Of a stretch of DNA of 41,810 nucleotides, positions 5,449-40,294 are shown piece by piece. How positions within the stretch are numbered: the first letter of the stretch is position 1; every line of letters starts with the position of its first letter. Both the position numbers and the translations under genes were made by a program. The DNA is taken from the IMG/VR virus record IMGVR_UViG_3300020190_000126, positions 1 through 41,810 of that record, one strand, 5' to 3'. Source of the stretch: a virus. Below the pieces are notes generated by a model. That model searched no databases, was not told the DNA's origin, and saw only the letters and a list, made by a program, of their open reading frames with translations.

Positions 5449-8400
5449 TAGTTATTCACCATGTAGAGGGTTTGATTCTTCACGAGAGGTTCACGCCAAG
5501 CTACATCTTTTTGTTGATCAAAGAATCCATCTTCAGCTGCAGCGAGATCGGCGGCAAAATAAGCGTAGTTCACCTTACAGTTGTTAGGATCTTCGGCGTA
5601 ACTCTCAGGGCCTTGAGGGCACAGTGGAGGATATTTGTAGATGCTGGCATCCCATACAGGGGGCTGAACAAGCTCAGCTGATCTTACCCGGATGTCTCTC
5701 TCAACGAATCCACTCAAGGGTCGATTTCCAGTGGGTTCCACATAAATTCCCTCCCAATCTCCTCCATCCACCGTTTTTCTGAAGTGGAACGGTTGGTATT
5801 CTGAGAGTTCTCCTTCAACCCACTCATCGTATTGCTCATCAATTGCGAAATTGAAGTCGGCATACGTGTATTCGCCCACTGTGCCAGTAACTGTGTTAAA
5901 GTATTCGTTGAGGTTGAAGAATCCCTGAACGTCAGAGAAGAGGTAAGGTTCGCTATAGATCAACGTTCCGACACTCGGATCCCGGTTGTAGAACACAATC
6001 TCCTCATAAATCTGAGGTTGTACAATCTCAGTTGGGCACTTCATTGATTTGAGTGCACCATTGGTTCCAGCGTAGGTAAAATCCTCTACTGCGAGCTCGG
6101 CTCTACTCCACTTCTGATTGTTTCTTCCATATTCTGATGGGAGGCGGATGAATGAGCGATCCCAATTCTCATCTCCAGGGCCGAAATTGAGATCAGCCAG
6201 AAGCGGATTGAGATAAGTATCATCATCCACGGTTTGAACATCAGCCACCTCAAGGGATTGAGTTTTCCAAGGCCTGAGAGTTGCTTCGGCATTTTGAACA
6301 GCTGGAGCAATGAAGAATCTCGCTTTCGAGAATACATATTCTCCAAATGGAGCAGGAGGATACACACCGCTAGATGGAGCCACCCAAAGAGATGGAAACT
6401 GTTGAAGCCCATTCTCGCTTAGAGCTGTGTATTGGAATCTCAGCGAACACAATAGCGGGTCGATCGAATAGATCATCCTAAAATCGGCCGTTTCCAGCTC
6501 TTCATTCACTTGAAGAGGGACGAAATCGTCACCAACGAAGATGGCAAGTTGTGAAAAGTTAGGTAGAGGATCTGCTGGTTGTGAGAATGCCCATCCTTGG
6601 CCATCACTCAAATCCCAGTTAGTTTCAATCCATGCTTCATTACCATTCGACGACTCGTAGTACATCGCCACACCGGGAGTATCGGGATCTTGCCAAAGTT
6701 CACCCGTTTCAATCACACATGATCCGCTGCTTAGAATTGGTTTGAGAGGGAAGAAATCACACTCTGAAGTGCCAAATTGGCATGGCGAAATGGGATAGTC
6801 AATCTCGACCCAAATGAGATTACGATCACGGTCCGAATATAACACCGCAAATGCGCCTGTTTCATTGTTCCAGTAGTAATCTCCCACATTCGCCACTGGC
6901 GGTGGAGAGTCACCCACAAAGCAGGTGTTTCCAGTCACCAAATTCAAAAGAAAGTCGTAACTGATTAGAACATCCAATGGCTCTAAATACAGTGCCTCGC
7001 GCTCATTGAATCCGTGAATGTCTAAAGCATCAAACACGAAATCCATCGGACGAGCGCCGCCTTTATTGCCCCAAACTCCAATGAAGTTGTTGAGTGGACC
7101 ACGCTCGTTGTATGGTACTGCAGAAACTACTTCAACACGACCCGTAAAGTCAGAGCTGATGTCAATGACTTGAGAGTTGGCGCCATATTGAGAAAGAATT
7201 GTGATGCGCGGAACAAATGCTTCTCCCTCATTGGAAAGTGCTCGATAGGCCACGTACATGTAGTCACCGCGTATCTCCCAATTCAGACTGAAATTATCAG
7301 TCTCGAAGGATTGAGGTACTGGAACACCATCAACTTGGAGTAGAAGATCTGATGCATAAGCTGGAGTAAATACTGTTGATTGAAGTAATGAACCAAGGAA
7401 TTCAATCTCATACCAGTCAGGTTGACGCACATTCGCATCATTTATGTAGAAACCTTCTTCATCCAATAGACAGTTGAAGAATACGATTCCTTCTGCAGTG
7501 ACTCCATTTGGATTATGAATGTAGAAGTTGTCCGGTTCAAAGATATAAAGCCCTTGAACACTCTGGTAACTTGGATCGATGTAAATGAATCCGTTCGCGA
7601 ACGAATTTGGGAAAAAGTAGTAGAACTCATGAGGAGTACTGCCTGCGTCCCAAATGTACACCTTGTTACTAGGCGTCTGCCAAATTGTTCCGGGTTTGAG
7701 ATCGTAAGTGTATGGAGGCGGTGAGGATTCTCCTTGAAGGGAGAGATACGCCGTCCCTACGCCTATTTGCACCCAAACTCCATTTGAGTTGGCATACAGT
7801 ATACCTGATCCCGCATCAAACCAGAGAGGATTGGCATTAGTGGGAGGTAGATCGCCGAGGTGAAGATAGGTACCGAGGCTGAAGTTCAAACCAGCCACAT
7901 TATAGGATTTCTCAATGTTGAACACATCAAGAACTGGATTGAAGTCGGCTCCACCTTCACCCCAATCTGACGGATCGACCCACTCAACTATCTGAACTTC
8001 TGTAGTTGCAATGGCCGCGCGAATAGGAGAAGCATAAGACCACACCACTGACAGACGATTTCCTATGGCTTCCGGCGGAACATATAACTGCCACAACCCT
8101 TTCGATTCCACCCATTGGCATTCCACCCACGGAGCGAGATTGTTCTCGTTAACGGAGAGATATATTGCCCGATCGAAGTAGTAATATGAACCGCCGTAGA
8201 ATTCTAGATTGGTGTAAGGAAGGAGAATTCCCTCTTGGCTGAACGGGCTTAGTGTAAGCTCGTAGTAATCATAGAACGCTGTGGTGCGAGTGAGTGATCC
8301 CGTAGAGCACCTAAAATCAGTATCACCGCTCGCAAGAGGCTCTGGGCGGTAGAATGGGAAAGGCCGATTTTGTGGGCAATCAACCTTGATCGCAGCTCCT

Positions 8401-8831
8401 AGTTCAAGGACGGCCAAGATTTCTGGGGTGATTGACCCAATGTTGATTGAAAGTGAATCGGAGTTTTCAGTGAGATCGTAGATATAAGCTTGAAGATTGC
8501 CAATGATCACTCGCTGACCGATGGCAATGTTTGGCTTCTTTTCGGTGATTAGAGCTGGAACCCATGACTGAACTTCGATGAGACGAAGAAGAGTATAGGA
8601 GTTGTAAACTCCGTATGTTCCGCCTAAGAGCGCACGCTTTTGGGAAACAGTGGTGGGTAGATTAGTCCAATAGTTTGGCCCGCTCCATCCTAAAAGTTGA
8701 GCAACCCAATTTAGCTGAATATTTACTCTCTCCGCAGTTTGGGTAATCTGAGCAAGTTGCTCCATCGACACCACAGTTGGGAGCTCATTGCGAAGCTCGA
8801 ACTGAACTGGGTTGAAAACTGGCTGGGCCAT
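5448..8831 (-). CDS. Giant baseplate/fibre structural protein with GDLW-type repeats
   Basis: This 1127-aa protein is almost wholly beta-rich and aromatic, with no membrane segment. Repeats of a small beta motif are visible: GDLPPTNANPLWFDAGSGIL (residues about 326-345, followed by VWVQIG), PGTIWQTPSNKVYIWDAG (about 380-397), GDSPPPVANVGDYYWNNETG (about 640) and GELWQDPDTPG (about 705, followed by AWIETN). The same motif occurs once in the 185-aa fibre-like protein. The N-terminal 90 residues are more helical (MEQLAQITQTAERVNIQLNW) and may attach to the baseplate. It sits between two unknown structural genes with TAATG overlaps on both sides. Size and position suggest a peripheral baseplate or fibre-connecting protein; the precise role is inferred. 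Confidence 0.75.
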   Translation of the reverse strand: MAQPVFNPVQFELRNELPTVVSMEQLAQITQTAERVNIQLNWVAQLLGWSGPNYWTNLPTTVSQKRALLGGTYGVYNSYTLLRLIEVQSWVPALITEKKPNIAIGQRVIIGNLQAYIYDLTENSDSLSINIGSITPEILAVLELGAAIKVDCPQNRPFPFYRPEPLASGDTDFRCSTGSLTRTTAFYDYYELTLSPFSQEGILLPYTNLEFYGGSYYYFDRAIYLSVNENNLAPWVECQWVESKGLWQLYVPPEAIGNRLSVVWSYASPIRAAIATTEVQIVEWVDPSDWGEGGADFNPVLDVFNIEKSYNVAGLNFSLGTYLHLGDLPPTNANPLWFDAGSGILYANSNGVWVQIGVGTAYLSLQGESSPPPYTYDLKPGTIWQTPSNKVYIWDAGSTPHEFYYFFPNSFANGFIYIDPSYQSVQGLYIFEPDNFYIHNPNGVTAEGIVFFNCLLDEEGFYINDANVRQPDWYEIEFLGSLLQSTVFTPAYASDLLLQVDGVPVPQSFETDNFSLNWEIRGDYMYVAYRALSNEGEAFVPRITILSQYGANSQVIDISSDFTGRVEVVSAVPYNERGPLNNFIGVWGNKGGARPMDFVFDALDIHGFNEREALYLEPLDVLISYDFLLNLVTGNTCFVGDSPPPVANVGDYYWNNETGAFAVLYSDRDRNLIWVEIDYPISPCQFGTSECDFFPLKPILSSGSCVIETGELWQDPDTPGVAMYYESSNGNEAWIETNWDLSDGQGWAFSQPADPLPNFSQLAIFVGDDFVPLQVNEELETADFRMIYSIDPLLCSLRFQYTALSENGLQQFPSLWVAPSSGVYPPAPFGEYVFSKARFFIAPAVQNAEATLRPWKTQSLEVADVQTVDDDTYLNPLLADLNFGPGDENWDRSFIRLPSEYGRNNQKWSRAELAVEDFTYAGTNGALKSMKCPTEIVQPQIYEEIVFYNRDPSVGTLIYSEPYLFSDVQGFFNLNEYFNTVTGTVGEYTYADFNFAIDEQYDEWVEGELSEYQPFHFRKTVDGGDWEGIYVEPTGNRPLSGFVERDIRVRSAELVQPPVWDASIYKYPPLCPQGPESYAEDPNNCKVNYAYFAADLAAAEDGFFDQQKDVAWREPLVKNQTLYMVNN

Positions 8832-9772
8832 TAGGGATTAGGCGCGATGTATGTGAACGGAAGCTCAACGAAGAATTGTTGTTGTGCGTCAGCAGGGAAG
8901 CCGAAGATTGCTTGCGGACTCAAATCGCCACTCCCGTCTGGACCAACAGTTGCTGGATATGTCCAAGGAACAACGCCATCCGCAAAAACATCATCGCCGA
9001 ACACCCAAATCTGAACTCTACCTCTCCAATGAGGATATTGCTCAATCCACTCTCCACAAGTATCCCAACCAGTTTGTGTGCCAGAAGAGATGACATTATT
9101 CAGAATGGATTCAGTTGGAAATGGATATGGAGGTATGAAAGGACCAATCGTTTCCTTAACGGGGATGCCGAATTGACTGAATGAGTAGTAGAATGGAGGT
9201 TCCCAGACGAAGGGAATACCTTCAGATTCTCTGTCAGGCAACCAAGCATAATTCACCCACATGTAGAAATTACCCGCAGTCCACATATTCTCCGGGATTT
9301 CCATACTTTGGCTCCAAGGTCCCACTTTCAGTTGGACTTGAGGTGCCGTGGTGCCGGGGCAAATGGCAGTTTGTGGAACAGTAACGTCAGGCCCCCAACC
9401 TTCATATTGAATGGTGGGATTTGGAAAATACGGGAGGATAACGGTATTGTAAATGCCAAAGTCGTCCCCTATCTTGAAATCTACGGGGTTTCCGTAAATG
9501 TCTTGAATGGCCCCAATCTGACTCAAAACGCCCAATTCACCATCTGCAAATGGACTCACTTGAATTGTGTACGTCAATTGAGTCGGAACATACTGAGTTG
9601 GGGCCACTGCCATTTGGCCTTGAATCAGAGGATTCTCGTTCTTCGCATAAAAAACCAATTTGAAATCGTCAGACGTTATGACAGGATGATCGAATTCTTG
9701 AACGATCGTCATGAGCTGAGGCCAAGATCCAGTTTGAGGACCTTCTACAATGGAGGAAACAAGAGTAGCCAT
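8831..9772 (-). CDS. Hypothetical structural protein of the baseplate operon, 313 aa
   Basis: Not recognised. Pro-, Trp- and Tyr-rich, beta-type composition (FVWEPPFYYSFSQFGIPV and IWVFGDDVFADGVVPWTYP) with no signal peptide or membrane span. N-terminus MATLVSSIVEGPQTGSWPQL. It is translationally coupled to both neighbours (TGATG upstream, TAATG downstream) between a 490-aa unknown and the 1127-aa structural protein, so it is most likely another virion part of the tail tip or baseplate periphery. Confidence 0.7.
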   Translation of the reverse strand: MATLVSSIVEGPQTGSWPQLMTIVQEFDHPVITSDDFKLVFYAKNENPLIQGQMAVAPTQYVPTQLTYTIQVSPFADGELGVLSQIGAIQDIYGNPVDFKIGDDFGIYNTVILPYFPNPTIQYEGWGPDVTVPQTAICPGTTAPQVQLKVGPWSQSMEIPENMWTAGNFYMWVNYAWLPDRESEGIPFVWEPPFYYSFSQFGIPVKETIGPFIPPYPFPTESILNNVISSGTQTGWDTCGEWIEQYPHWRGRVQIWVFGDDVFADGVVPWTYPATVGPDGSGDLSPQAIFGFPADAQQQFFVELPFTYIAPNP

Positions 9773-11244
9773 CAGTTGACAGAAATAGCGGTAGTAAAGC
9801 CAACTGACGCTGAAGTCAGTGACGTAGTTAAAGAAAGAGGAGGAACCAATGTGACAGTCGCTCCAACGAGATTTATGTCTGTTGGAGAAGGTGGGCTTGG
9901 AGGATATGGTGGCGGAGCGTCATTTACAGTGATTCCATACTTCTCAAGAAATGCGTATGATTGCTTTAGAAGAGTGGGCGGGGCCATGAATCCGGGCGCA
10001 AACGCCTTGAATTCCGTCCACAAAGTAATGAGTTGACTGTCCCAAAACTGGGTCAACCAGTTCGCAATAGGCTCATAGTCGCGATTGATGATTTCACGAA
10101 TGTCATCTTTGAAGAGCTCACCGTTTGGTCTCTTGGCAATCTTAAAGTTGTCAACGCTGATGATGGCAAGACGACATAGTGATTCATCTTTTGGAATCAC
10201 GTTGGTCGGATAGATCGCCAGTTGTGCTCTAGGAACAGGAATTGAAGGCTTTGAAGCAATATATAGCTGTCCAGACACAGTCAGCTTTGACGCATTCACC
10301 TTTGTTGCAACGCCCCAATCCAGCTTCCATTTGAATTGAGGAATCAGATCAGTTTGGAACTCCCAATAGTATCCCTCGTTATCCAAAAGAGCGGGATTCT
10401 GTTGAACCAATTCCCATTCATTATCAGGGTCTTCGGAAGCCACATACAAACTACATTGAGGCACGTTTGCCGCGAGAGTGGTTCTCACTTTAATCGTGTC
10501 TAGTTTCCATGGCAGAGGCGATTCCCAAGCGATATTACTCAGAAGAGGCTGTTCGTAGTCAGGGAATCCAGGTTTGACACCAGCTTGTGCACCTGGAGAT
10601 CTGTTAACCAAGTCGATGTAATTCTTCCACTCCAGTCTCTGTTCGGCGGGCGCGAACATGTTGATGCCTGGAAATGGCCAAGGATCAACTTGATCTTCAC
10701 TTCGTTGGAAAGATGCCGACGCGCTGTCAATGACAGAAAAGTCTAAACCAGCAAGACAATAATCTTCAACTTGAAACGGAAATGGCTGCGGCTCATCATC
10801 ATAAATCAGTTGATAACAGATGAGATAGCGCCCGTCTGCAACTCCGACCTCTCTAAAGTCTAGAAACGTTTTGTAAACGGGTGTAGTTCCTTCTTCCCAT
10901 ACAACGGCTCCATTCTCAATAAGCAGGACTTCCAAATTCTCAGACTGACCGACGTACATCGAGCCAGGACCAAATAAGTCGCCACCTCGGGGAATGAATA
11001 CGTAACCCCGACCCCCATCTTCAAAGAAGTTGAGTTGGTATTGCTCAGAAGCGGCTGGAAGGCGACCGTAAATTGGTCTACCGACTGGATTCCACTGAGT
11101 GGGTTGAACGAAAAGTCCTTTTGCTTCTTTGTACTGCGGCGAAAAGATTTTGATGCGCCGCTGATTATCAATTGTGGTGTTGAGTTGAGGAGTTAGTCCC
11201 GCCACACCAGCTGAATTTGTGATCGGCGTAAGATTCTGACTCAT
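9772..11244 (-). CDS. Hypothetical baseplate-associated structural protein, 490 aa
   Basis: Not recognised by family. It starts MSQNLTPITNSAGVAGLTPQ and is beta-rich to about residue 355. A helical, aromatic segment follows near residues 385-440 (DDIREIINRDYEPIANWLTQ and WDSQLITLWTEFKAF). A proline-rich linker (PPPYPPSPPSPTD) then leads to a short C-terminal beta tail. It follows the gpJ-like baseplate gene with an ATGA overlap. In P2-like phages the gene after J is tail protein I, but I see no sequence similarity to it here. A baseplate wedge or fibre adaptor role is an inference from position. Confidence 0.7.
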   Translation of the reverse strand: MSQNLTPITNSAGVAGLTPQLNTTIDNQRRIKIFSPQYKEAKGLFVQPTQWNPVGRPIYGRLPAASEQYQLNFFEDGGRGYVFIPRGGDLFGPGSMYVGQSENLEVLLIENGAVVWEEGTTPVYKTFLDFREVGVADGRYLICYQLIYDDEPQPFPFQVEDYCLAGLDFSVIDSASASFQRSEDQVDPWPFPGINMFAPAEQRLEWKNYIDLVNRSPGAQAGVKPGFPDYEQPLLSNIAWESPLPWKLDTIKVRTTLAANVPQCSLYVASEDPDNEWELVQQNPALLDNEGYYWEFQTDLIPQFKWKLDWGVATKVNASKLTVSGQLYIASKPSIPVPRAQLAIYPTNVIPKDESLCRLAIISVDNFKIAKRPNGELFKDDIREIINRDYEPIANWLTQFWDSQLITLWTEFKAFAPGFMAPPTLLKQSYAFLEKYGITVNDAPPPYPPSPPSPTDINLVGATVTLVPPLSLTTSLTSASVGFTTAISVN

Positions 11245-23663: not shown

Positions 23664-26600
23664 TCAGATAGCGTTGTCTTGACCGACGCCTAGTGCGTCA
23701 AGCTCGTTCTGCATGTTGCCGATGGCCACACGAATGAGGTCGACTTCGATGCGCTCCAGTGTTGGCACCGGAACCACGAACACCTTGGCTCGGACGAGGC
23801 CGCTTTCCAAACCAGTTTTAGTTTGAACGCGCTCATCGCAAATAACCTGGAAAGCATCTCCAGGACGTTTTCCGAACAGAGCACCACGGACATACAGCTC
23901 GTTGAGGATGCTGTTGCCGATGGAGATGATCTTGTTGTAAACGAGGCCGAAACCGTCGATCACGTTGAAGATCTGACTGTCGAATGCGCGGCGTAGGCTA
24001 CCATACACTACGTTCATGATCACGCGAGTGTTCACGAACTGGAACAGGCGCTGCTCAGCGTCGGCCTGGTTGATGCGAGTGCGACCACCCCAGATGAATA
24101 CGGTGTTGCCATATCCAGGCAGTGTGCGGCAGACGTTGCAACCTTTAGGGTTGAGAATGTCTTGCTGAATGCTGTTGATGGGGATCTGAACAGCGGACAC
24201 ACCATTGAGGGGATACCTGACGCCGGCAGGCGGATACTGGAAACCCTCACTACGATAGCGGCGAATAGCCACACCAGTGATATAAGGGCTCGGAGGAATC
24301 CAAGCACCAGAAGCGTTCTTCAGGTACGGGCCATAGTACGCGATGAAACCACGAGGGTTGTAGTACTCTTGGCTGTCCTCGAGCAGTTTCTGTGCGTCGT
24401 CGATACCGGTTGCAACAACAACTGCGGCAGGAACACCTTCATTGAAGGTACCACGCAGACCGTAATCCACCAGCTCTTCGGAGGTGACTGCATTGAAGCG
24501 CCACAAGTTAGAAGGAGCTTCCTTATAAGCAATATAGCGGAGAGTCAGAGAAGAACCCCACAATACAGTCTTATTGCCCGAACCATCGGTGAAGGTCGGG
24601 GTGATGTAGGCTTGAGCTGAACGATCATTGGCCGTCAGAGGTGTGCAGAAGTAGCTCACCGTGTTCTGAGAACGAAGAACGAGATCTCCAAGGAATCCAG
24701 CATTTTCTGGATTTGGAACGCCCGCATCGAACTCACCAAATGGCGAGTAATACTTTGCATCAGGCTGATTTTCTACACGATAGAAGCCAAGTGTGTGAGG
24801 TTGGCCCACATCGGCGGGACCGGACAGAGGATCGAGGTTAGCGGGATAGAAGGTGGGCAACACGTTGTAGGTGTTGAAACCATACTTACGACCGCGAATG
24901 AGATTCACCACACCCTCATTATTGTAGAGGCTGGTATTCTCAGGAGCAACAACCAATCCGCTGTAAGACAGGGTAGTTTGTCCCACATTCAGTCCATTAT
25001 TGGGGAACTGAATAAAGATGCGGCTGTTAAGATTGCTCAGAGTGGTGGCCAAACGGAATTGATTACCGTTGATCACATTCACATAGTACCGAACAGAAGC
25101 AGCAGATGTGGAAGCATTCACCAGAGTTCCAGTACCAATTTTAGTAAGTGGAGCGGTGAAGTAGATGACAGAACCATTGACAAGGCCATGGTTCAAACAT
25201 CCGAATACTGCTGGACTGTTCGTTTCTGAAGGATTTTGCTTGGTAATGTCAGTCTCTGCAAATTTGCGAGAGAATTGAGCAAGTTGGAAGTTTTCAGTAC
25301 TGTTCTGAAGTGTTCCAGGCAAGTGGAGAGTGTTTAGATCAAGCAGCTCGTTAGTGTCATTCAGAATCAAGTCAGAAACTTGACCATCGATTTCGACATT
25401 GAGATCCCATGCGGGAACTTCGTAGGTCAAAAGACCGGTTCCTTTGGTCTGCAGCGAGGCATATCCTTGAGCCGGGACGGTTGGGGTTCCACCACTAAAA
25501 GTGACAGTCGGCACATCAGTTTGGCTGTAGCCACTTCCTGCGTCAGTGATGACGACGCTAGTCACACCGCCAGTTCCACCAACAACAGCGTAACCAGTTG
25601 CAGTACGCCCACCAAGAGCAGCAGGAGCGCTGAAGATCACATCGGGCTCATCACCAACGGTATAGCCGGAACCAGGAACAGTGATCACAACACCGGTGAC
25701 GGCGTCACCAAGCAGTCCAGAACCACTGGAAGTATCAACGGGGATACAGCCAGGAGGCAGAGTCTGAACACCAGGATACTGAGGAGTGCCATCTCCATTG
25801 AGACCGCCTTTGCCGATGATCCAGTTGTAGGCAGTGATCGCTTGAGGATAGGTTGCAGCGAAGTAGATGTAACCAGTGAAGGTTTTTTCTGTTGGGGTTA
25901 GGTAAGTGGGAACCACATACACAGTTTCACCGTCTAACTCAGCAAGAGCTCCCACGCATTTGCTCAGAACCACAGGGGTGCCAGCTTCCTTAGTGGAAGG
26001 CCAGCTTGCGTTCTGAAGATCGAGAAGACCCGGACGGTCAAAGTCAGGCGTGGTGCTGGTCGCAAAAGCGATTTCACCATCGTCACGCAGGGACAAGAAA
26101 CGATCGACAGGAACGTTCAGGTTCTGCGAGCCGTTGACAGCAAATTCAGGGTTGCTCTCAGTGCCGCTCAGGGGGGTGTAACGAAGTTGCAGATAATTGG
26201 TGTCGTCAGCGGTCCACTTATAGATGGTGTTACCGACAAGGAACTCTTGATTAGTCTTTAGCGGAGCAGCTGCTTCATGCTGAAGGAAGTTATTGTACTC
26301 CAGAATGTCGGTCACATTGTATGGACCAGCATCAGCAATTGCCATCCACTTGTGGCTATTCAGTTCTGCTTGACGGGCCATTTCTTGACCAATCAAACGG
26401 CGTTCTTCTGGACCAAACTTAGCGAAAGCCACAGGAGCGGTCAGGTAACCCTGATCTTCCTGATCAACAAAAGCGGTCTTCAGACACTGAATGTAATCAG
26501 AGACGAGCTCGTTGGTATTCTCATTGTCGGGAATGACAGGACCAACGGTGTATGCATTCAGAGTGAACACATAGTAAGCGCCATCGCTAGGAGGCTCACT

Positions 26601-27353
26601 CTCAGGAACCACACTCACAGGAGCGTTGAACTCACGACCAGCGAGATACTCGAAAGCACACTCAGCAAATTGCCCTTTGCAAACGCCCCGATCACGAACG
26701 ATGGTGCCAGCAGCTACGTTAGGATCGGTGGTAACGGCAAGAGCGACAGCATCACGGATCGCAATGGCGATCTTTTTGTTGTTGTCGTAATTGCCTTCGA
26801 CATAATCAACGGGAATCTCTACAGGCACACCTTTCCAGGTGCCACTGCTGGTGAATTCACCGAGACGTGCGCCGTTGATCAGAAGTTGGGCGAACACGAC
26901 ATCGCCAGCTTGAAGAGAACTGGAAACGCCCAAGCCGTTGGTCTTGAAACCAGAAGGATTGAACTGCACTTCCACCACGTTAATGGGAGTTCCCACGCGG
27001 ATCACGCGCAGGTCACCAACATAGCTTTGGGTGAAGAATGCGTCAACACACTGATACGACAGCAGTTCGATCTTACCAGCAGGGATAACTCCGCCGATCA
27101 GACGCACATATTCACGAGAGTTGGTGACTTGCACCGGCTCGTTGAAAGGGAAGAGTGTGGTGGGAACTTCAGGGTCCACCTCGACCAGCATATAGACGGT
27201 GCTAAATGCTGCGATTGCAGGGGTCGCTGACTGTCCAGCAACCTCATTGATATAAACTCCGGGGGCTCCCCCGAAAGAAATTGTTGCCATTTCAATATGG
27301 TCAAAAGTCCCTTCTTTTCCTGGAGTGTGATGATGGCCTCGGGGTTGCTCCAT
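23664..27353 (-). CDS. Tail sheath protein, unusually large (1229 aa)
   Basis: The N-terminal MATISFGGAPGVYINEVAGQ and the C-terminal part (AFDSQIFNVIDGFGLVYNKI, GDAFQVICDERVQTKTGLES, VFVVPVPTLERIEVDLIRVA) are typical of contractile sheath proteins, which wrap the tube and drive injection. T4 gp18 has 659 residues, so about 570 residues are extra. Residues about 548-633 contain two PGSGYT/AGSGYS-type beta repeats with DEPDVIFS and DVPTVTFSGG, known as insertions in some phage sheaths. These extra domains probably decorate the sheath exterior. The ATG at 27353 has a GGAG 8 nt upstream. The family start MATISF lies at 27290, so 21 leader residues or the later start are both possible. The stop overlaps the RHH gene region. 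Confidence 0.88.
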   Translation of the reverse strand: MEQPRGHHHTPGKEGTFDHIEMATISFGGAPGVYINEVAGQSATPAIAAFSTVYMLVEVDPEVPTTLFPFNEPVQVTNSREYVRLIGGVIPAGKIELLSYQCVDAFFTQSYVGDLRVIRVGTPINVVEVQFNPSGFKTNGLGVSSSLQAGDVVFAQLLINGARLGEFTSSGTWKGVPVEIPVDYVEGNYDNNKKIAIAIRDAVALAVTTDPNVAAGTIVRDRGVCKGQFAECAFEYLAGREFNAPVSVVPESEPPSDGAYYVFTLNAYTVGPVIPDNENTNELVSDYIQCLKTAFVDQEDQGYLTAPVAFAKFGPEERRLIGQEMARQAELNSHKWMAIADAGPYNVTDILEYNNFLQHEAAAPLKTNQEFLVGNTIYKWTADDTNYLQLRYTPLSGTESNPEFAVNGSQNLNVPVDRFLSLRDDGEIAFATSTTPDFDRPGLLDLQNASWPSTKEAGTPVVLSKCVGALAELDGETVYVVPTYLTPTEKTFTGYIYFAATYPQAITAYNWIIGKGGLNGDGTPQYPGVQTLPPGCIPVDTSSGSGLLGDAVTGVVITVPGSGYTVGDEPDVIFSAPAALGGRTATGYAVVGGTGGVTSVVITDAGSGYSQTDVPTVTFSGGTPTVPAQGYASLQTKGTGLLTYEVPAWDLNVEIDGQVSDLILNDTNELLDLNTLHLPGTLQNSTENFQLAQFSRKFAETDITKQNPSETNSPAVFGCLNHGLVNGSVIYFTAPLTKIGTGTLVNASTSAASVRYYVNVINGNQFRLATTLSNLNSRIFIQFPNNGLNVGQTTLSYSGLVVAPENTSLYNNEGVVNLIRGRKYGFNTYNVLPTFYPANLDPLSGPADVGQPHTLGFYRVENQPDAKYYSPFGEFDAGVPNPENAGFLGDLVLRSQNTVSYFCTPLTANDRSAQAYITPTFTDGSGNKTVLWGSSLTLRYIAYKEAPSNLWRFNAVTSEELVDYGLRGTFNEGVPAAVVVATGIDDAQKLLEDSQEYYNPRGFIAYYGPYLKNASGAWIPPSPYITGVAIRRYRSEGFQYPPAGVRYPLNGVSAVQIPINSIQQDILNPKGCNVCRTLPGYGNTVFIWGGRTRINQADAEQRLFQFVNTRVIMNVVYGSLRRAFDSQIFNVIDGFGLVYNKIISIGNSILNELYVRGALFGKRPGDAFQVICDERVQTKTGLESGLVRAKVFVVPVPTLERIEVDLIRVAIGNMQNELDALGVGQDNAI

Positions 27354-30860: not shown

Positions 30861-33659
30861 TCAAAGTAAACCACGTTGGACGAGGGAGTAACGCGTTTTG
30901 AGCTTGTCGATGGCACCGATTTCACCCAGTTCACGCATGCTGAATTCCTTGCCCTCAGGCTCATCTCTCCCTTGAGGGTGAGAAGGACTGACGGTGCATT
31001 CGTGCGGCGATTTGCGAATGCGATCATCAATAGCCACAGAAGAGAAGAATGCACGACTTAATGGGAGATCATGTAAACCAACTGATGCTTGGAATCGTGC
31101 CCATGTGTAGAGGTGTGCGATCTGATAAGCTACCGCCCAAAGTTCGGTGTGCTTTTCAGGAGCCATCCACCAAATCTCGTCATGAATCGAGATGATAAAG
31201 CGAGCTTGTAGTTTGTATTCACGGATGAGCCAATGTGCCGCAGTGAGGATGGTTGCGAGGATTTCAGCGCCCGATGCCTGAATAGTCCAGTTAATGCGGC
31301 TGGTGAGGAAGTCATCACCAACGACATTGGGCCGCATCGCAGTGGAGATTTTGGTTCCCAAACATGGCAGAGTCGGCACCTTCTGTTTGAGAGCGATGTT
31401 CTCCATGAAATTGAAGCATCCACTGTCGGTGCCGCCACGCAGAGGTTCAGATCGATACTGTCTGAAACCCTTCTTTGCCTCCAGCATTTTGGTGGCAAGA
31501 TTGTTCAGTTCTCGAGGGTTACGATCAGGGAATTTGCGACGAATGGTGTTGGCCACCGTACGAACACCCGCGCCATAGAGAACAGCGAAACCCACACCTT
31601 TGGCTGTGTCACGGTCAACACCAGCCACTTTGGCGAGTGCCGAGTGTGGATCAGTGCCATGCTCTTTCGCACCACTCAACACACTGAATCCCATCGGCGA
31701 GCCACCAACCACACCTGTGTCATAGGCATCACAATAGGCTGATGCGATTTGAAGTTCCTGACCGTCAAAGTCAGCTCCGACAATGCGCCACCCGTCTGGT
31801 GCTGACACCCGAGTTTTGAGTTCGGTTCCGATGCGATAGTTTTTGGTGGAGCACATGGTCACCATCAGCGGCTCCACAGTGCGTCGAGTCACAGTGCCAT
31901 GAGCGAGGATCTCTGGGCAAGTGATGTAGGCATCTTCGCCGTGAGGATTGTGAGCCTTGACAAAGATGCGATCCATCACCCGCTTACGGACAGACGTCCA
32001 ATAGGATGTGGCATTAGCAATCTCAAGAGCACGCTTCGCAGCGGGCAAATCGCTGCTGAGGCGGCCCACCTTCATGTCTTCCACGAAATCCTTCGAAAGC
32101 AGCACGCCAACATTGGACTTCTGATCTTTCGGGTGTGGAATTTTGACGAGTTCGCCCGCCTCATCGTAGAAGCACCACCCTTTATTCTTGACGTCCACAA
32201 TTGGCGAACCTTCCCACTTCAGCTTCAGCATGATGTGGGCGAGCACACTTTTGGTCGTGATTCGCTTGTCAGGGTCTTTGATGAAGTCACGATACCAATT
32301 CGGGATGTTGGCGTATCTCCCTTTGGTGGTCTTCACTGACCAATCCAACTGTTCCAACCACGGATCAGCATTGACAAACTTCTCCGCTTTTGCCGGATCT
32401 TGGGAGTATTTTTCTCTCCACTCTTCGAATGCCTCGTGGGAGAGAGAACGACAAACATCACCCATCTCACGAATGTGCTCGTGGTAGGCATCCTCACACT
32501 GCTGAATCCACTCTTTCCAATTGTCAGGGAGGGGAATCACTGAACCGTTGAGGTGATACATGCCACACAGACCAACCAGACTCGGGGTGGAGTCGAGGTA
32601 CTTCGGCCACAGTGCTTGAAACAACTCAGCAGTGTACAGAGCATCCTTGATGGCGTAGTCGAGAGCCTCGAAGATGGCAACACGAATACCAGCAAGGTCA
32701 GGAGAGTTGACGAACAAGTCGCGAACTTCCTTATCGCTGTATCCGAGTTTCTTGACTGTCTCATCACCAAAGTACTTCCGCACCTCATAGACGTGGAAGT
32801 TGTAACACTCAACCAAGGAGTTGGTAGCACCTTTCTCCAGCCACTTCGGAGCGAAGCGGAGTTTCCGCTTCTCATCCTCTGTCATTTCGTCAGGATCCTT
32901 ACCAGCCAATACGTAAAGCCAACGCTGACCACCTGCAAGGCCAGACACACCGATGTGAGCTGAAAGAGTGTCAAAGTAGAAGTTTTCAGGTTCGGATCGA
33001 TCAAGAGAATATGCCTCACGAGAGCGGACACGATCGTAGGAGATGTTGTGGCCAGCCACAAACCGATTCTCCCCGATGGGGATCATCTCATATTGGACCC
33101 ACTGATCCTGCGGAAGCGACGGGTCAATGAGTTCATCAGCGATCCAAATGTACGCCGCTTCCGACGAGAGCGCGGTGCCGATGATTGGGAAGGCACCACC
33201 TTGCACGAAGGTCTCAGTATCAAAAGTGAACCCTGACTCAAGCGGATATGGGACCGTCTCTGTAGTCCACTGTTCAGATTTTTGACGGACGTAGCGAGTC
33301 CATCCAGGGTTGAGGACAATATCTTCAAGAGCCGGGATCGGCGGGAGGGGCGCTTTAGCGAAATCATCTGCGGCTTGTTTGTAGTGACCAATTTGTTCTT
33401 CTGCAATCTTCTCAAAGTGATCCTCAATGGTCACACCTTTGAGATCAGGCAGAGGGAGTGGCCCATCGTACATGCCATCTGCGTGACTGACAGGCACTGG
33501 GATTTTGAACTTTTCTAACAAAGAAATCGCCCGGTCCAACTGTTTTTGAGTCGGTTCCGGGCGAGGAACAGTGCCGAAAAGCTTCCGGTGAATCTCGTCT
33601 GAGACCACCGGATAACCGAGTTCGTTCTTGCGCATGAGCGGCACGTTGAGTTTTGTCAT
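30861..33659 (-). CDS. Family A DNA polymerase of the mitochondrial Pol gamma type, with 3'-5' exonuclease
   Basis: From ATG 33659 (a TTG lies one codon earlier) this is a 932-aa replicase. Its exonuclease motifs read FTFDTETF (Asp147, Glu149), FVAGHNISYDRVRSREAY (Asn205, Asp209) and YAIKDALYTAELFQ (Asp339). Its polymerase motifs read VGADFDGQELQIAS (motif A, Asp630), RDTAKGVGFAVLYGAG (motif B, Arg683, Lys687, Phe691, Tyr695) and ISIHDEIWW (motif C, Asp827). The wording GHN-[IV]-S-[YF]-DR, the segment SLVGLCGMYHLNGSVIPLPD before the spacer, SRINW and the tail DLPLSRAFFSSVAIDDRIRK all follow human POLG rather than E. coli Pol I or T7 gp5. Phe691 aligns with POLG Tyr951. It should copy phage DNA. 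It lies downstream of the Ig-like gene. Confidence 0.95.
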   Translation of the reverse strand: MTKLNVPLMRKNELGYPVVSDEIHRKLFGTVPRPEPTQKQLDRAISLLEKFKIPVPVSHADGMYDGPLPLPDLKGVTIEDHFEKIAEEQIGHYKQAADDFAKAPLPPIPALEDIVLNPGWTRYVRQKSEQWTTETVPYPLESGFTFDTETFVQGGAFPIIGTALSSEAAYIWIADELIDPSLPQDQWVQYEMIPIGENRFVAGHNISYDRVRSREAYSLDRSEPENFYFDTLSAHIGVSGLAGGQRWLYVLAGKDPDEMTEDEKRKLRFAPKWLEKGATNSLVECYNFHVYEVRKYFGDETVKKLGYSDKEVRDLFVNSPDLAGIRVAIFEALDYAIKDALYTAELFQALWPKYLDSTPSLVGLCGMYHLNGSVIPLPDNWKEWIQQCEDAYHEHIREMGDVCRSLSHEAFEEWREKYSQDPAKAEKFVNADPWLEQLDWSVKTTKGRYANIPNWYRDFIKDPDKRITTKSVLAHIMLKLKWEGSPIVDVKNKGWCFYDEAGELVKIPHPKDQKSNVGVLLSKDFVEDMKVGRLSSDLPAAKRALEIANATSYWTSVRKRVMDRIFVKAHNPHGEDAYITCPEILAHGTVTRRTVEPLMVTMCSTKNYRIGTELKTRVSAPDGWRIVGADFDGQELQIASAYCDAYDTGVVGGSPMGFSVLSGAKEHGTDPHSALAKVAGVDRDTAKGVGFAVLYGAGVRTVANTIRRKFPDRNPRELNNLATKMLEAKKGFRQYRSEPLRGGTDSGCFNFMENIALKQKVPTLPCLGTKISTAMRPNVVGDDFLTSRINWTIQASGAEILATILTAAHWLIREYKLQARFIISIHDEIWWMAPEKHTELWAVAYQIAHLYTWARFQASVGLHDLPLSRAFFSSVAIDDRIRKSPHECTVSPSHPQGRDEPEGKEFSMRELGEIGAIDKLKTRYSLVQRGLL

Positions 33660-33666
33660 CAAAAGT

Positions 33667-33695: not shown

Positions 33696-36299
33696 CTAAA
33701 CGACGGGGCCGACGTTGATAGGTCCGAGAGTGAGGTACGTGACGCCTTGGGAGTTGCGAGCCACAGCCTCGCCGCCAGCATCGCGATTGGAGCAGATGGA
33801 TGTCAGTTTGACTTGAGTCCTTGGCTTCGCGAAACCAATAGGGGTGCCTTCCACACCAACGTTGTAATCGCTGTAGATGATCGGGTCAACCGAGCTGGCG
33901 AACACAGGCGGAGTGAGCTTGAGAAACTTTCCACCAGCGGTGTCACTCGTGACGGACAGTTTGCCTTGGTTGGCGATATGAGGTGTACCAACCATGGGAC
34001 CCAGGACGTTGGAGGTGTCAACGTAGGTGACTTTATCCTTGATGTGCGTGAGAGTGCAGAGGACGTAGATGGAACTATCAGTCCAGCGACCGTTCTCGTT
34101 GAACACGTTGAGAGTTGTGTCACCTTCTTGAATCTTTTCATCAGTTCCGTCCGGGTACTCAACGTACCAATCCCAAGTTATCAAATCTCTGCCGTCAGGA
34201 TCTGACGGGTAGTCGTAGTCAGGGGAAGTGTATGTGAGCGTAATTCCGTCACCGATGATCGTAGGTCCAGTGATGATGCCCGAGTGATTAATGACGAAAC
34301 CGCCTGTCACCACTTTCTTGTAAGCAGTGACACTCACCACGACGCCAGCAACGTTCTTTGCTGTTGCTGCGACACCGATCTCCAGACCGATCATGTCGTC
34401 TGTCAGCTGCAGTGTCGTTCCTCCTTGCTGAATGACGCCTCCTTTTGGAGTCTGCCAGACCCAAGAGACCGTCGGCGTCGGGTCACCCGAGAAGGTCGCA
34501 GGGGTGTAGGTCAGCGTATTGCCAGGTGTGTATTTCCCAGCGACTGACCCAGCCGTCACAACAGAAGGCGGAGTCGCAATGACGGCAGGTGACACAAACT
34601 GTGCGGACACAGTAGAGATAGCAATACCGTCATTATAGGAAGCAGTCATCTCGACGACAATCTGCTGCCCGAATGCTGACTCAGGAATCGTGACCGAGAG
34701 ATCAGAGGGAGAAGGAGTGACAACCCCCTTGATGAGCACGCGATTGAGTTGAGGGTCAACGCGATAGACCTTCATGTCCTGAACAATGGCTGAGCCAGTG
34801 AAGGGAGGTTGAAGGTTGTTCGTGGGGTTGGTGTTGATGGGATAGATCGTGCAAACTTCGCCAACACGAGGACCGGAGCCTACATAGCTCAGAGACGGAG
34901 GCGCCACCAGTGCGATTAGCTGACGAATGGGTCCCCAGCTGTTTGAAATGCTACGAACCTGACTTACAGGATACTGAGCAGTCGCGGTTGTAACGAAGAC
35001 GATATTCTTAGCGACGTCGTTGGGCTGAACCGTGTAGTTCAAGCCAAGCGCACCCGGAATCGGTGTGAACGCATTGAAAGTGGTTGGATATCCCCACTGG
35101 TATGTGAGGGAGGTTGGGACCTGATTGAAGACCGCAGGGATGCCACGCAGAACATCACCGATGGAAGGTGTGCCGTCCGGCGGAATGAGCTGAGACCGTT
35201 CAACGACCTCCAGTGGCAGAGGAATGATGCCTGTTGGATTGGAGTAGAAGGTTGCGGTCCCCACACTGTTGGTAACAGTCTGGAAGTAAACGAGTTGTTG
35301 GCCAACGTCGTCTCTCGTCACTCGATATGAGTTCAGTCGAGCGCCAGCTTGGAACGGAATCGGGTTTGGAACTGCGACACGTGCCCAACCCCAGTTGGTG
35401 ATCTGCGGAGTTGGATATCCGCTGTAGATACCTGTCGTACTTCCGATAAAGTCTCCGACTTCGGGGTCGGTGAAGTCAATCTTGGGAGCAACCACAACTG
35501 TAGGAGCCGCTGTTTGGACGGCGATCTCGTTCGTGTACCACGAAACGGAGCCCGAGCTGTTGGTGGCAGTCACCTTGAGAGCCAGGTTACACCCGATATC
35601 TTTGCCTTGAATAACGTATGTGTATCCGCTTACCTGAATCGGTACTTCAGTGAGAAGGGTTGGGTTACGCACCCAGTTCCACGAAATTGCAGGAGCAGGG
35701 GTTCCAGTCGCTGTTGGCAGTGTGGAGATTTCAAGGGTTTGACCTGCAAACGCAGTGACGGCGCCGCCGCCGACCACGCTGATGGTTCCGGTAACACCCT
35801 TAGCTGGATCAGTGCCTAAGACAGGACCAACGAGATTAGATACGGTGCGAACTTCGCCTTTTGAGTTCTCAGCGACTGTGAAAACGCCAATCAACTTATC
35901 TACGTCCAGGGAGTCCACCACATACGTGAGACCGGCATCAAGGTAAGTAATTGTCTTGCCTTGGACCCACACCCACAGGTAATCGAGATTGATCGGAGCA
36001 GTACCACTCACTACCCCAGGAGTGAAGGTCAAGGTCTCGCCAACTTTAGCGTCACCTGTGATAACTCCAGCGCCTTCAATAAACGGATCCGGGTTGTACT
36101 GGCCCTCAGGGTAGGTCGGTGATTCAGTTGTGGACCCCTCTGAAACCAGAGCAGCGCCAAAGCCGGTCTCAATCAACTGCTGAGGCAGTTGGTATCGTGG
36201 TAGACCCACAAATGGACCTGTCAGGACGTAGGGTCCGGTCATGACCAGGGAGCTATTGGCTCCGTTGGCCCAGTTGGGGAATTGAGTATTGAGAGCCAT
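33696..36299 (-). CDS. Large virion protein with tandem Ig-like repeats
   Basis: This 867-aa protein is built of about seven beta-sandwich repeats of roughly 90 residues with recurring wording. Each has an opening such as ITGDAKVGETLTFTPGVVSG, a Trp strand (SWNWVRNPTLL, ITNWGWARV, SWVWQTPKG, TWDWYVEYPDG) and a closing strand of the type LKVTATNSSGSVSW. Such Ig-like arrays decorate phage capsids, tails or fibres and are thought to aid adhesion to cells or mucus-like carbohydrate. The first ~60 residues form a different domain (VGLPRYQLPQQLIETGFGAA, then GSTTE) that resembles the stand-alone 64-aa protein just upstream and may attach to the virion. No signal peptide. It sits oddly between unknown genes and the DNA polymerase, away from the other structural genes. 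Confidence 0.82.
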   Translation of the reverse strand: MALNTQFPNWANGANSSLVMTGPYVLTGPFVGLPRYQLPQQLIETGFGAALVSEGSTTESPTYPEGQYNPDPFIEGAGVITGDAKVGETLTFTPGVVSGTAPINLDYLWVWVQGKTITYLDAGLTYVVDSLDVDKLIGVFTVAENSKGEVRTVSNLVGPVLGTDPAKGVTGTISVVGGGAVTAFAGQTLEISTLPTATGTPAPAISWNWVRNPTLLTEVPIQVSGYTYVIQGKDIGCNLALKVTATNSSGSVSWYTNEIAVQTAAPTVVVAPKIDFTDPEVGDFIGSTTGIYSGYPTPQITNWGWARVAVPNPIPFQAGARLNSYRVTRDDVGQQLVYFQTVTNSVGTATFYSNPTGIIPLPLEVVERSQLIPPDGTPSIGDVLRGIPAVFNQVPTSLTYQWGYPTTFNAFTPIPGALGLNYTVQPNDVAKNIVFVTTATAQYPVSQVRSISNSWGPIRQLIALVAPPSLSYVGSGPRVGEVCTIYPINTNPTNNLQPPFTGSAIVQDMKVYRVDPQLNRVLIKGVVTPSPSDLSVTIPESAFGQQIVVEMTASYNDGIAISTVSAQFVSPAVIATPPSVVTAGSVAGKYTPGNTLTYTPATFSGDPTPTVSWVWQTPKGGVIQQGGTTLQLTDDMIGLEIGVAATAKNVAGVVVSVTAYKKVVTGGFVINHSGIITGPTIIGDGITLTYTSPDYDYPSDPDGRDLITWDWYVEYPDGTDEKIQEGDTTLNVFNENGRWTDSSIYVLCTLTHIKDKVTYVDTSNVLGPMVGTPHIANQGKLSVTSDTAGGKFLKLTPPVFASSVDPIIYSDYNVGVEGTPIGFAKPRTQVKLTSICSNRDAGGEAVARNSQGVTYLTLGPINVGPVV

Positions 36300-38284: not shown

Positions 38285-40294
38285 TCAGGAGGCCAGATCA
38301 CACAAATTTGCGATTTTCGTCCCGGCCCCACCTGGCTTTCCGAGCTTCACCGAGGCAAGCGTGAGCTCAAGGGCCTTTTTCCTCTTCGAGGCGAAGGTGA
38401 CGGTGTAGGCCCTCTCATCGAACCAAACGAGTTCGGCTCCCTCTGGGAGTGCGGCTTTTCCTTTCGAAGTCACTTTGCAGAGCGACTCACCCTCGAACAC
38501 GATGGCTTTCAGCACCTCGCCGAGTTTGAACACGCAGAGGTACTTTCGTGTCGCCACCTCAGCTTCTCGTTTTGCGAGAGTCACTGATGTGTAGGCGTCA
38601 GCAATGGGACCTTTGAAGGTCGCAGGCACTTTGCGGAGGAATCCGTCAGCGGTGAAGAACACCACTTTGTCCTTCTGATCGAGGACGAGTGCTCCACGTG
38701 GGCCTTTGGCTTGAGTGACAATGCCCTTCTTTTGGTCAACGAGCATGAACCTCGGCTTAGCCACTCGAGGAGCCTGGTCGCGTTTGGGCGCTCCGGGCGT
38801 GGTGACCTTCGTGAAGCCAGCCGGAGGCTCGATCAGAGCTGACCGACGCTTCTCTCCGTGACGTGTGGCGAGATCGCTCGCCAGCTTGAGGGCCCACTCA
38901 GTGCGGGCTTTCTTGTCATTTGCGAGGGTGGTCAACTCGGCGACCTCCACGATCAGCGCCTGCTCCTCAGCGAGCAATTCCTCGCGGTCAAGACCAGTGA
39001 GCTGACGAAGCTTCATCTCGAGGATGGCCTTCGCCTGATCGACTGTGAACTTGAGCGTGCGTGTGGTGATGAGAGTTGTGAGTGCGTCCTTTGGAGACGC
39101 CGAAGCACGAATGATCTTGATGACAGCGTCGATCTTGTCGATGGCTTTGAGAAAGCCACGAACAATCTCGAGACGCATCTCCTTCAGATCAAGTTCGTGT
39201 CGGAACTTGACTTCCAGGCGATCCAATCTCCACTCGAACCAGCGCGCACAAATGTCAACTGGCGAGAGCTCGACCGGTCGCGTACCGTCAATAACCAGCG
39301 TTTTTGCCGGATACTTAGTGTCAAGATCGGTGACTGCGAAGAGTTGCTGAGCCATTTGTTCAGCGTCCACACCGGGCTTCGCAATAACACTGACACGGTC
39401 TCCGGAGAGATCAGATTCATCGATGACTTCAGCGATTCCGTCGATTTTGCCCTTCTCGAGGGCGTCTTTGATTTGTTCACCCAATTTTTCAGGGTTGACC
39501 CGAGGAGGTAGGTTTGTAAACGTAACCACTCCTCGATTCTTCGCCCTACCAGACCGTTCTTGCGTAGAGACTTCGTACCGTGCACGACAGCGGATACTCC
39601 CGCTACCAGTCTGAGTGTAATTAAGAAGCTGTTCATCGCGGACAATGTCACACCCTGTGGGGAAATCAGGCAAAAGGAGTTCACGAGCCTTCTTGATGTC
39701 CTTTTTGGCCATCAATGCTGTAGCTTGCACCACATCACGGAGATTGTGTGGTGCGAGAGTGGTTGCGAATCCCACTGCAATGCCAGCGTCTCCATTCAGA
39801 AGGATGGACGGCACAGCGGTGTTGAAGCGGACAGCTTCCTGACGCGAACCGTCGTAGTTTGGACGAGTTTCCCACGTCGCACGATCTTGAAGGAGAAGGT
39901 CGACAGCTGACGGACGGAGTTTCGCTTCCGTATATCGCTCAGCAGCGGGACCATCAACAGAACTTCCAAAATTCCCGTGACCGTTCACCCAAGGCACATT
40001 GTTGTTCCACGCTGTCGCCATGTTGACGAGCGTGCCATAGCAACTTCCCTGGGGATGATAATAAGCAAGTGTCAAACCCGTGACACGAGCACACTTCACA
40101 AACTTTTTGTCAGGCAGCAGACCTTCCTCGATCATCGTCTGAAGGATGCGCCGAGCTGCTGGTTTCAGGCCGTCATAAAGATCAGGGATGGCACGGCCGA
40201 GGAGCACAGCCATCGCGTAATCTCCATAGTCCTCCTTCATCTGGTCAGCCAGATTGATGGAGACGATGTTGTCTTTCACAGTTGGTTTTGGCAT
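38285..40294 (-). CDS. Type II topoisomerase subunit A (GyrA/ParC-like)
   Basis: This 669-aa protein shows the GyrA/ParC breakage-reunion domain: DYAMAVLLGRAIPDLYDGLK, PAARRILQTMIEEGLLPDKK, then YYHPQGSCYGTLVNMA, VNGHGNFGSSVDGPAAERYT with catalytic Tyr121 preceded by Arg120, and IAVGFATTLAPHNLRDVV. The tower and coiled-coil region follow (RFNTAVPSILLNGD through LKFTVDQAKAILEMKLRQLT). The C-terminal ~150 residues are a shortened, divergent pinwheel-like part (FMLVDQKKGIVTQAKG, VVFFTADGFLRKVPA). Cellular GyrA is about 800-875 aa. It cuts and rejoins DNA with an ATPase subunit, which is not in the window. It follows a 70-aa gene by 4 nt. Whether it is gyrase or a topoisomerase IV-like relaxer cannot be told. 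Confidence 0.93.
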   Translation of the reverse strand: MPKPTVKDNIVSINLADQMKEDYGDYAMAVLLGRAIPDLYDGLKPAARRILQTMIEEGLLPDKKFVKCARVTGLTLAYYHPQGSCYGTLVNMATAWNNNVPWVNGHGNFGSSVDGPAAERYTEAKLRPSAVDLLLQDRATWETRPNYDGSRQEAVRFNTAVPSILLNGDAGIAVGFATTLAPHNLRDVVQATALMAKKDIKKARELLLPDFPTGCDIVRDEQLLNYTQTGSGSIRCRARYEVSTQERSGRAKNRGVVTFTNLPPRVNPEKLGEQIKDALEKGKIDGIAEVIDESDLSGDRVSVIAKPGVDAEQMAQQLFAVTDLDTKYPAKTLVIDGTRPVELSPVDICARWFEWRLDRLEVKFRHELDLKEMRLEIVRGFLKAIDKIDAVIKIIRASASPKDALTTLITTRTLKFTVDQAKAILEMKLRQLTGLDREELLAEEQALIVEVAELTTLANDKKARTEWALKLASDLATRHGEKRRSALIEPPAGFTKVTTPGAPKRDQAPRVAKPRFMLVDQKKGIVTQAKGPRGALVLDQKDKVVFFTADGFLRKVPATFKGPIADAYTSVTLAKREAEVATRKYLCVFKLGEVLKAIVFEGESLCKVTSKGKAALPEGAELVWFDERAYTVTFASKRKKALELTLASVKLGKPGGAGTKIANLCDLAS

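Follow-up and report, generated by a model that had tools for sequence, protein, structure and literature searches.

A Pol gamma-type DNA polymerase of a contractile-tailed, cyanophage-like virus shares an ancestor with the mitochondrial replicase

The window, by which we mean the whole 41.8 kb stretch of DNA analysed here, is a linear record from a virus of bacteria. Genes for portal, head protease, tail sheath and baseplate proteins are present, as is one for subunit A of topoisomerase II. The portal, head protease, sheath and baseplate genes identify a contractile-tailed phage. Table 1 lists the gene under study, its motifs and two neighbouring genes. The polymerase reading frame is intact and runs from an ATG at position 33659 to a stop codon that is included at 30861. 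A TTG at 33662, one codon upstream of the ATG, is an alternative in-frame start. Directly upstream of the polymerase gene, on the minus strand at 33696-36299, lies an 867-residue open reading frame with the character of Ig-like repeats; PHROG returned no match for this frame.

Table 1. Positions of the polymerase gene, its domains and motifs, and neighbouring genes in the window.
Feature	Position	Strand	Basis or remark
Pol gamma-type (family A) DNA polymerase with 3'-5' exonuclease, 932 aa	30861..33659	minus	ORF, Pfam, PHROG, PDB, structure
Mitochondrial-type exonuclease domain PF18136 DNApol_Exo, residues 69-354	32598..33455	minus	Pfam
Exo I FDTETF, residues 146-151 (D147, E149)	33207..33224	minus	D and E invariant in 30/30 rows
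Exo II GHNISYDR, residues 203-210 (D209)	33030..33053	minus	ORF translation, alignment
Exo III YAIKDALYTAE, residues 335-345 (Y335, D339)	32625..32657	minus	ORF translation, alignment
Motif A GADFDGQEL, residues 628-636 (D630, E635)	31752..31778	minus	ORF translation, alignment
Motif B RDTAKGVGFAVLYGAG, residues 683-698 (R683, K687, F691, Y695)	31566..31613	minus	Alignment
POLG-specific stretch GGTDSGCFNFMENIALKQKVPTLPCLG, between motifs B and C	31356..31436	minus	Outgroup comparison
Motif C SIHDE, residues 824-828 (D827, E828)	31176..31190	minus	ORF translation, alignment
Tail sheath protein, contractile-tailed phage	23664..27353	minus	Gene context
DNA topoisomerase II subunit A (gyrA-like), upstream of POLG	38285..40294	minus	Same order in S-CBWM1

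The DNA of mitochondria in animals and fungi is copied by polymerases of the Pol gamma (POLG) family. The original prediction placed the window gene in this family, and sequence, structure and tree all upheld the call. In profile searches, PF18136 matched with an E-value of 8.2e-60 (202.8 bits, against a cut-off of 26.7) and PHROG 22619, annotated as DNA polymerase, with 2.3e-232. The general family A profile, PF00476 DNA_pol_A, matched with 1.8e-11. The top PDB sequence matches were yeast Mip1 (4.7e-115) and mammalian POLG (about 1e-107), whereas bacterial Pol I scored 0.03 or worse. The exonuclease and polymerase domains align with mitochondrial Pol gamma end to end.

Every motif quoted in the original prediction, which gave no strand, was found in the translation, including RDTAKGVGFAVLYGAG and, near the C-terminus, DLPLSRAFFSSVAIDDRIRK. 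When the protein was aligned to the yeast and mouse enzymes, the catalytic residues of Exo I-III and Pol A-C were all present. Residues D147, E149, D209, D339, D630, K687 and D827 are conserved without exception across the 30 representative rows of the alignment. The stretch GGTDSGCFNFMENIALKQKVPTLPCLG is common to phage and mitochondrial POLG, whereas T7, Pol I, CRP-171 and cyanophage PP lack it. Elsewhere in the alignment, the Glu of motif C is replaced by Ser (HDE to HDS) in all eight representatives of the S-TIM5 clade, and is kept in every POLG row outside that clade.

Judging by established work on Pol I and T7 polymerase, the Phe/Tyr position of motif B would set dideoxynucleotide discrimination, and Phe691 predicts that the window polymerase discriminates against ddNTPs. 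The predicted numbering of Phe691, and its alignment with the mitochondrial Tyr of AKIFNYGRIYGAG, were correct. The residue is a feature of a whole clade, however, and not of this gene in particular: Phe occupies the position in the window and A-HIS clades, and Tyr in the S-TIM5 clade, Mic1-like phages and mitochondria. The presence of Tyr in Mic1 and S-TIM5, and its absence from A-HIS and S-CBWM1, had already been noted (PMC7156551).

An AlphaFold2 model of the polymerase, built from 23 phage sequences, had a mean pLDDT of 85.5 and a pTM of 0.86. In a Foldseek search of the PDB, the best 36 chains were all POLG, from human, mouse or yeast, with query TM scores of 0.69-0.84. Human POLG was matched over the full length of the model (TM 0.83), and the best models of human and mouse POLG and yeast Mip1 gave TM scores of 0.77-0.84. 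The first matches outside the family were phage G20c Pol I, T7 polymerase and the Klenow fragment (TM 0.33-0.40). The predicted structure thus favours a POLG fold, at a query TM of 0.83 against 0.40 for Pol I and T7. A tree was rooted with T7, Pol I, CRP-171 and cyanophage PP, whose branches are long. All POLGs, phage and mitochondrial, formed one clade (support 100/100; branch length 2.0) that excluded the T7, Pol I and podophage polymerases, and the window gene fell inside it. Neither of the outcomes named in the original prediction as contradicting it, a firm position within the T7-type or bacterial Pol I clades or a better structural match to those enzymes, was seen. There is next to no chance that the protein is a T7-type or bacterial Pol I-type enzyme resembling POLG in its catalytic motifs only: its Pfam DNA_pol_A matches and weak tblastn matches to podophage polymerases are outweighed by the PDB E-values, the TM scores, the rooted clade and the POLG-only stretch between motifs B and C, and that identity is refuted. 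Mitochondrial and phage POLG go back to a single ancestor, separate from the T7 and Pol I polymerases.

Likeness to human and mouse POLG and yeast Mip1 extends over the exonuclease, the polymerase, the POLG-specific stretch and a C-terminal DLPxSxAFFS segment. The differences lie in motif B (Phe, against Tyr in mitochondrial POLG and Mip1), in the lack of a Mip1-type C-terminal extension, and in the spacer. Between alignable blocks the spacer measures about 58 residues, against about 249 in mouse, and holds no recognisable accessory-subunit-binding insertion. The segment that interacts with the accessory subunit is a feature of metazoan POLG and not part of yeast Mip1. Since the Mip1 spacer is short too, this segment is no requirement for membership of the POLG family. 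The short phage spacer means that the metazoan segment is probably missing, and the window enzyme probably acts as one chain, with no accessory subunit.

The gene is under strong purifying selection. Compared with relatives that are 92% and 85% identical, dN/dS was 0.04-0.07; these figures are rough because dS, at about 1.5, nears saturation. Fold, domain order and intact catalytic residues were all established computationally. The product belongs to the Pol gamma branch of family A, putatively acts as a single proofreading chain, and most likely replicates its phage genome. Residues D147, E149, D209 and D339 of the exonuclease would remove misincorporated bases, and palm and fingers residues D630, K687 and D827 would extend primers.

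The closest homologue from an isolate is the 'DNA polymerase gamma' gp77 of Synechococcus phage S-CBWM1 (MG450654), which is 54% identical over its full length. S-CBWM1 shares Phe in motif B and the gene order topoisomerase (gyrA), POLG, tail genes. It differs in having some 40 extra residues just before motif B, and in having no counterpart of the 867-residue frame between topoisomerase and POLG. The window covers part of the genome of an S-CBWM1-like cyanomyovirus; for its positions 1-25000, no near-identical DNA was found among named phages. Judging from its relatives, the host is most likely a cyanobacterium. S-CBWM1, S-TIM5 and, within the window clade, several large contigs carry a photosystem gene of the psbA/psbD family (PF00124); no photosystem gene was matched within the 41.8 kb window.

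The Pol gamma enzymes of cyanophage S-TIM5, A-HIS1 and A-HIS2 (Acaryochloris) and Mic1 (Microcystis) belong to the same family, share the order of domains and the core catalytic residues, and are 30-38% identical to the window protein. Members of the S-TIM5 clade carry Tyr at the motif B position, and their motif C Glu is exchanged for Ser. The Mic1 gene, unlike that of the window, is split by an intron, and its product is nearest to the mitochondrial enzymes. The intron sits inside motif A (GADVDS / QELWIS). Pol gamma genes in A-HIS1 and A-HIS2 were reported by Chan et al. (2011), as cited in PMC3914683 and PMC7156551. Further reports concern S-TIM5 (2012), S-CBWM1 (2018) and Mic1 (PMC7156551), and the phage and mitochondrial Pol gamma enzymes have been proposed to descend from a common ancestor (PMC7156551). 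Because phage Pol gamma and this shared ancestry were already published, the main claim of the original prediction is a rediscovery. The window gene is an ordinary, well-preserved member of a described cyanophage group.

We collected 143 distinct full-length POLG reading frames from scans of IMG/VR viral contigs, made with phage or mixed queries, and from named phages; a single scan matched 183 stretches. The plasmid collection gave no POLG match. Among GTDB genome contigs there was one, at positions 8588-9598 of a contig (L093, 9.6 kb) that had been binned into a Microbacteriaceae MAG. It comprises the N-terminal part of POLG, cut off at the contig end, and the contig is probably phage or mis-binned. 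With this as the single match, GTDB offers nothing to suggest that bacterial chromosomes encode POLG. A very divergent, deep-branching and apparently intact POLG of 816 residues lies on a 77 kb viral contig (L161:5908-8355). A search of IMG/VR for its relatives returned only itself, and a search of named phages brought up no more than the POLG phages already known, plus a weak match to a Streptomyces-phage Pol I.

The original prediction went further, and proposed that such phages carry relatives of the source of the mitochondrial replicase and that the window gene could anchor its tree. We built a tree of 30 rows, comprising 27 phage representatives, the fused Mic1 protein, yeast Mip1 and mouse POLG; the two mitochondrial sequences are both opisthokont, and one was assembled from aligned pieces. 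The mitochondrial enzymes and the Mic1-like phages were sister groups at full length (100/100), and also by halves (exonuclease 100/99, polymerase 99/98). Grouping the S-TIM5 clade with mitochondria was rejected by the AU test (p 2.6e-7). For A-HIS the same grouping was rejected at full length (p 8.5e-4) and on the exonuclease half (p 0.001), but not on the polymerase half alone (p 0.105). The alignment served as a separate check: residues shared exclusively with mitochondria number 17 in the Mic1-like group, 3 in S-TIM5, 1 in the window clade and 0 in A-HIS. Mic1-like POLGs (L010, which is Mic1 8001-10977, L230 and L233) are about 38-42% identical to the yeast and mouse enzymes, which are 44% identical to each other. 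A mitochondria-seeded search matched only Mic1-like contigs, two of its four seed sequences being Mic1-like themselves.

It is very improbable that mitochondrial POLG has its nearest relative, or its source, in the S-CBWM1-like lineage itself. Although the window protein shows strong local wording matches to POLG and is 33-34% identical to the yeast and mouse enzymes, Mic1-like L230 reaches 40-42%. Joining the window clade to mitochondria was rejected at full length (p 3.6e-10) and on the exonuclease (p 4e-5) and polymerase (p 0.008) halves. A sister relationship between the S-CBWM1-like clade and mitochondria is, under present sampling, rejected. By these sequence comparisons, mitochondrial POLG has its closest known kin in Mic1-like phages and not in the window lineage. 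Hence, the proposal about the mitochondrial source holds for the phage POLG family and fails for the window gene, which loses the place of anchor to the Mic1-like sister group.

The direction of transfer is a separate matter. In the best rooted trees mitochondria group with Mic1-like phages inside deeper phage diversity. A tree in which all phage POLGs are monophyletic, with mitochondria outside, was not rejected (AU p 0.30 and 0.317). Nesting of mitochondria inside phage POLGs is favoured but not significant. Acquisition of POLG by phages from eukaryotes, the reverse of transfer from phages to mitochondria, is unlikely: the root is not fixed, as the AU values for phage monophyly show, but the best rooted topology, the large phage diversity among the 143 reading frames and the cyanobacterial hosts of POLG-bearing isolates argue against it.

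T7-type RNA polymerase and Twinkle are two other phage-like mitochondrial proteins. We found no T7-type RNA polymerase (PF00940) in any of 17 POLG phage records, four named phages with complete genomes among them, and no Toprim_2, the T7 gp4/Twinkle type, in any of 10; diverged versions of either could escape these profiles. Positive controls T7 and CRP-171 both matched PF00940, strongly, and Toprim_2. DnaB_C (PF03796) was likewise matched in 0 of 17 records, the T7 positive control covering PF00940 and Toprim_2 only. S-CBWM1, Mic1, A-HIS1 and S-TIM5 are the four named POLG phages with neither a T7-type RNA polymerase nor Toprim_2 detected. A POLG derived from such phages would probably have arrived separately from T7-type RNA polymerase and Twinkle. 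We tentatively suggest that animal and fungal mitochondrial POLG may derive from one cyanophage lineage, Mic1-like, and that, because POLG-bearing phages lack both of these proteins, it may have been acquired apart from them; we would put this at somewhat below an even chance.

Taken together, we are confident that the window gene encodes a Pol gamma-family polymerase, most likely the phage replicase, with a likely cyanobacterial host, from a family that shares its ancestor with mitochondrial POLG apart from T7 and Pol I, and in which Mic1-like phages lie nearest to mitochondria. The gene is one more member of a large cyanophage POLG family. The lack of matches to replisome partners makes it less likely that a single T7-like phage delivered POLG together with T7-type RNA polymerase and Twinkle. 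As to where the mitochondrial replicase came from, the wider sampling points to Mic1-like phages as the closest known kin. Should a Mic1-like origin be true, the window clade would be an outgroup helping to root that event.
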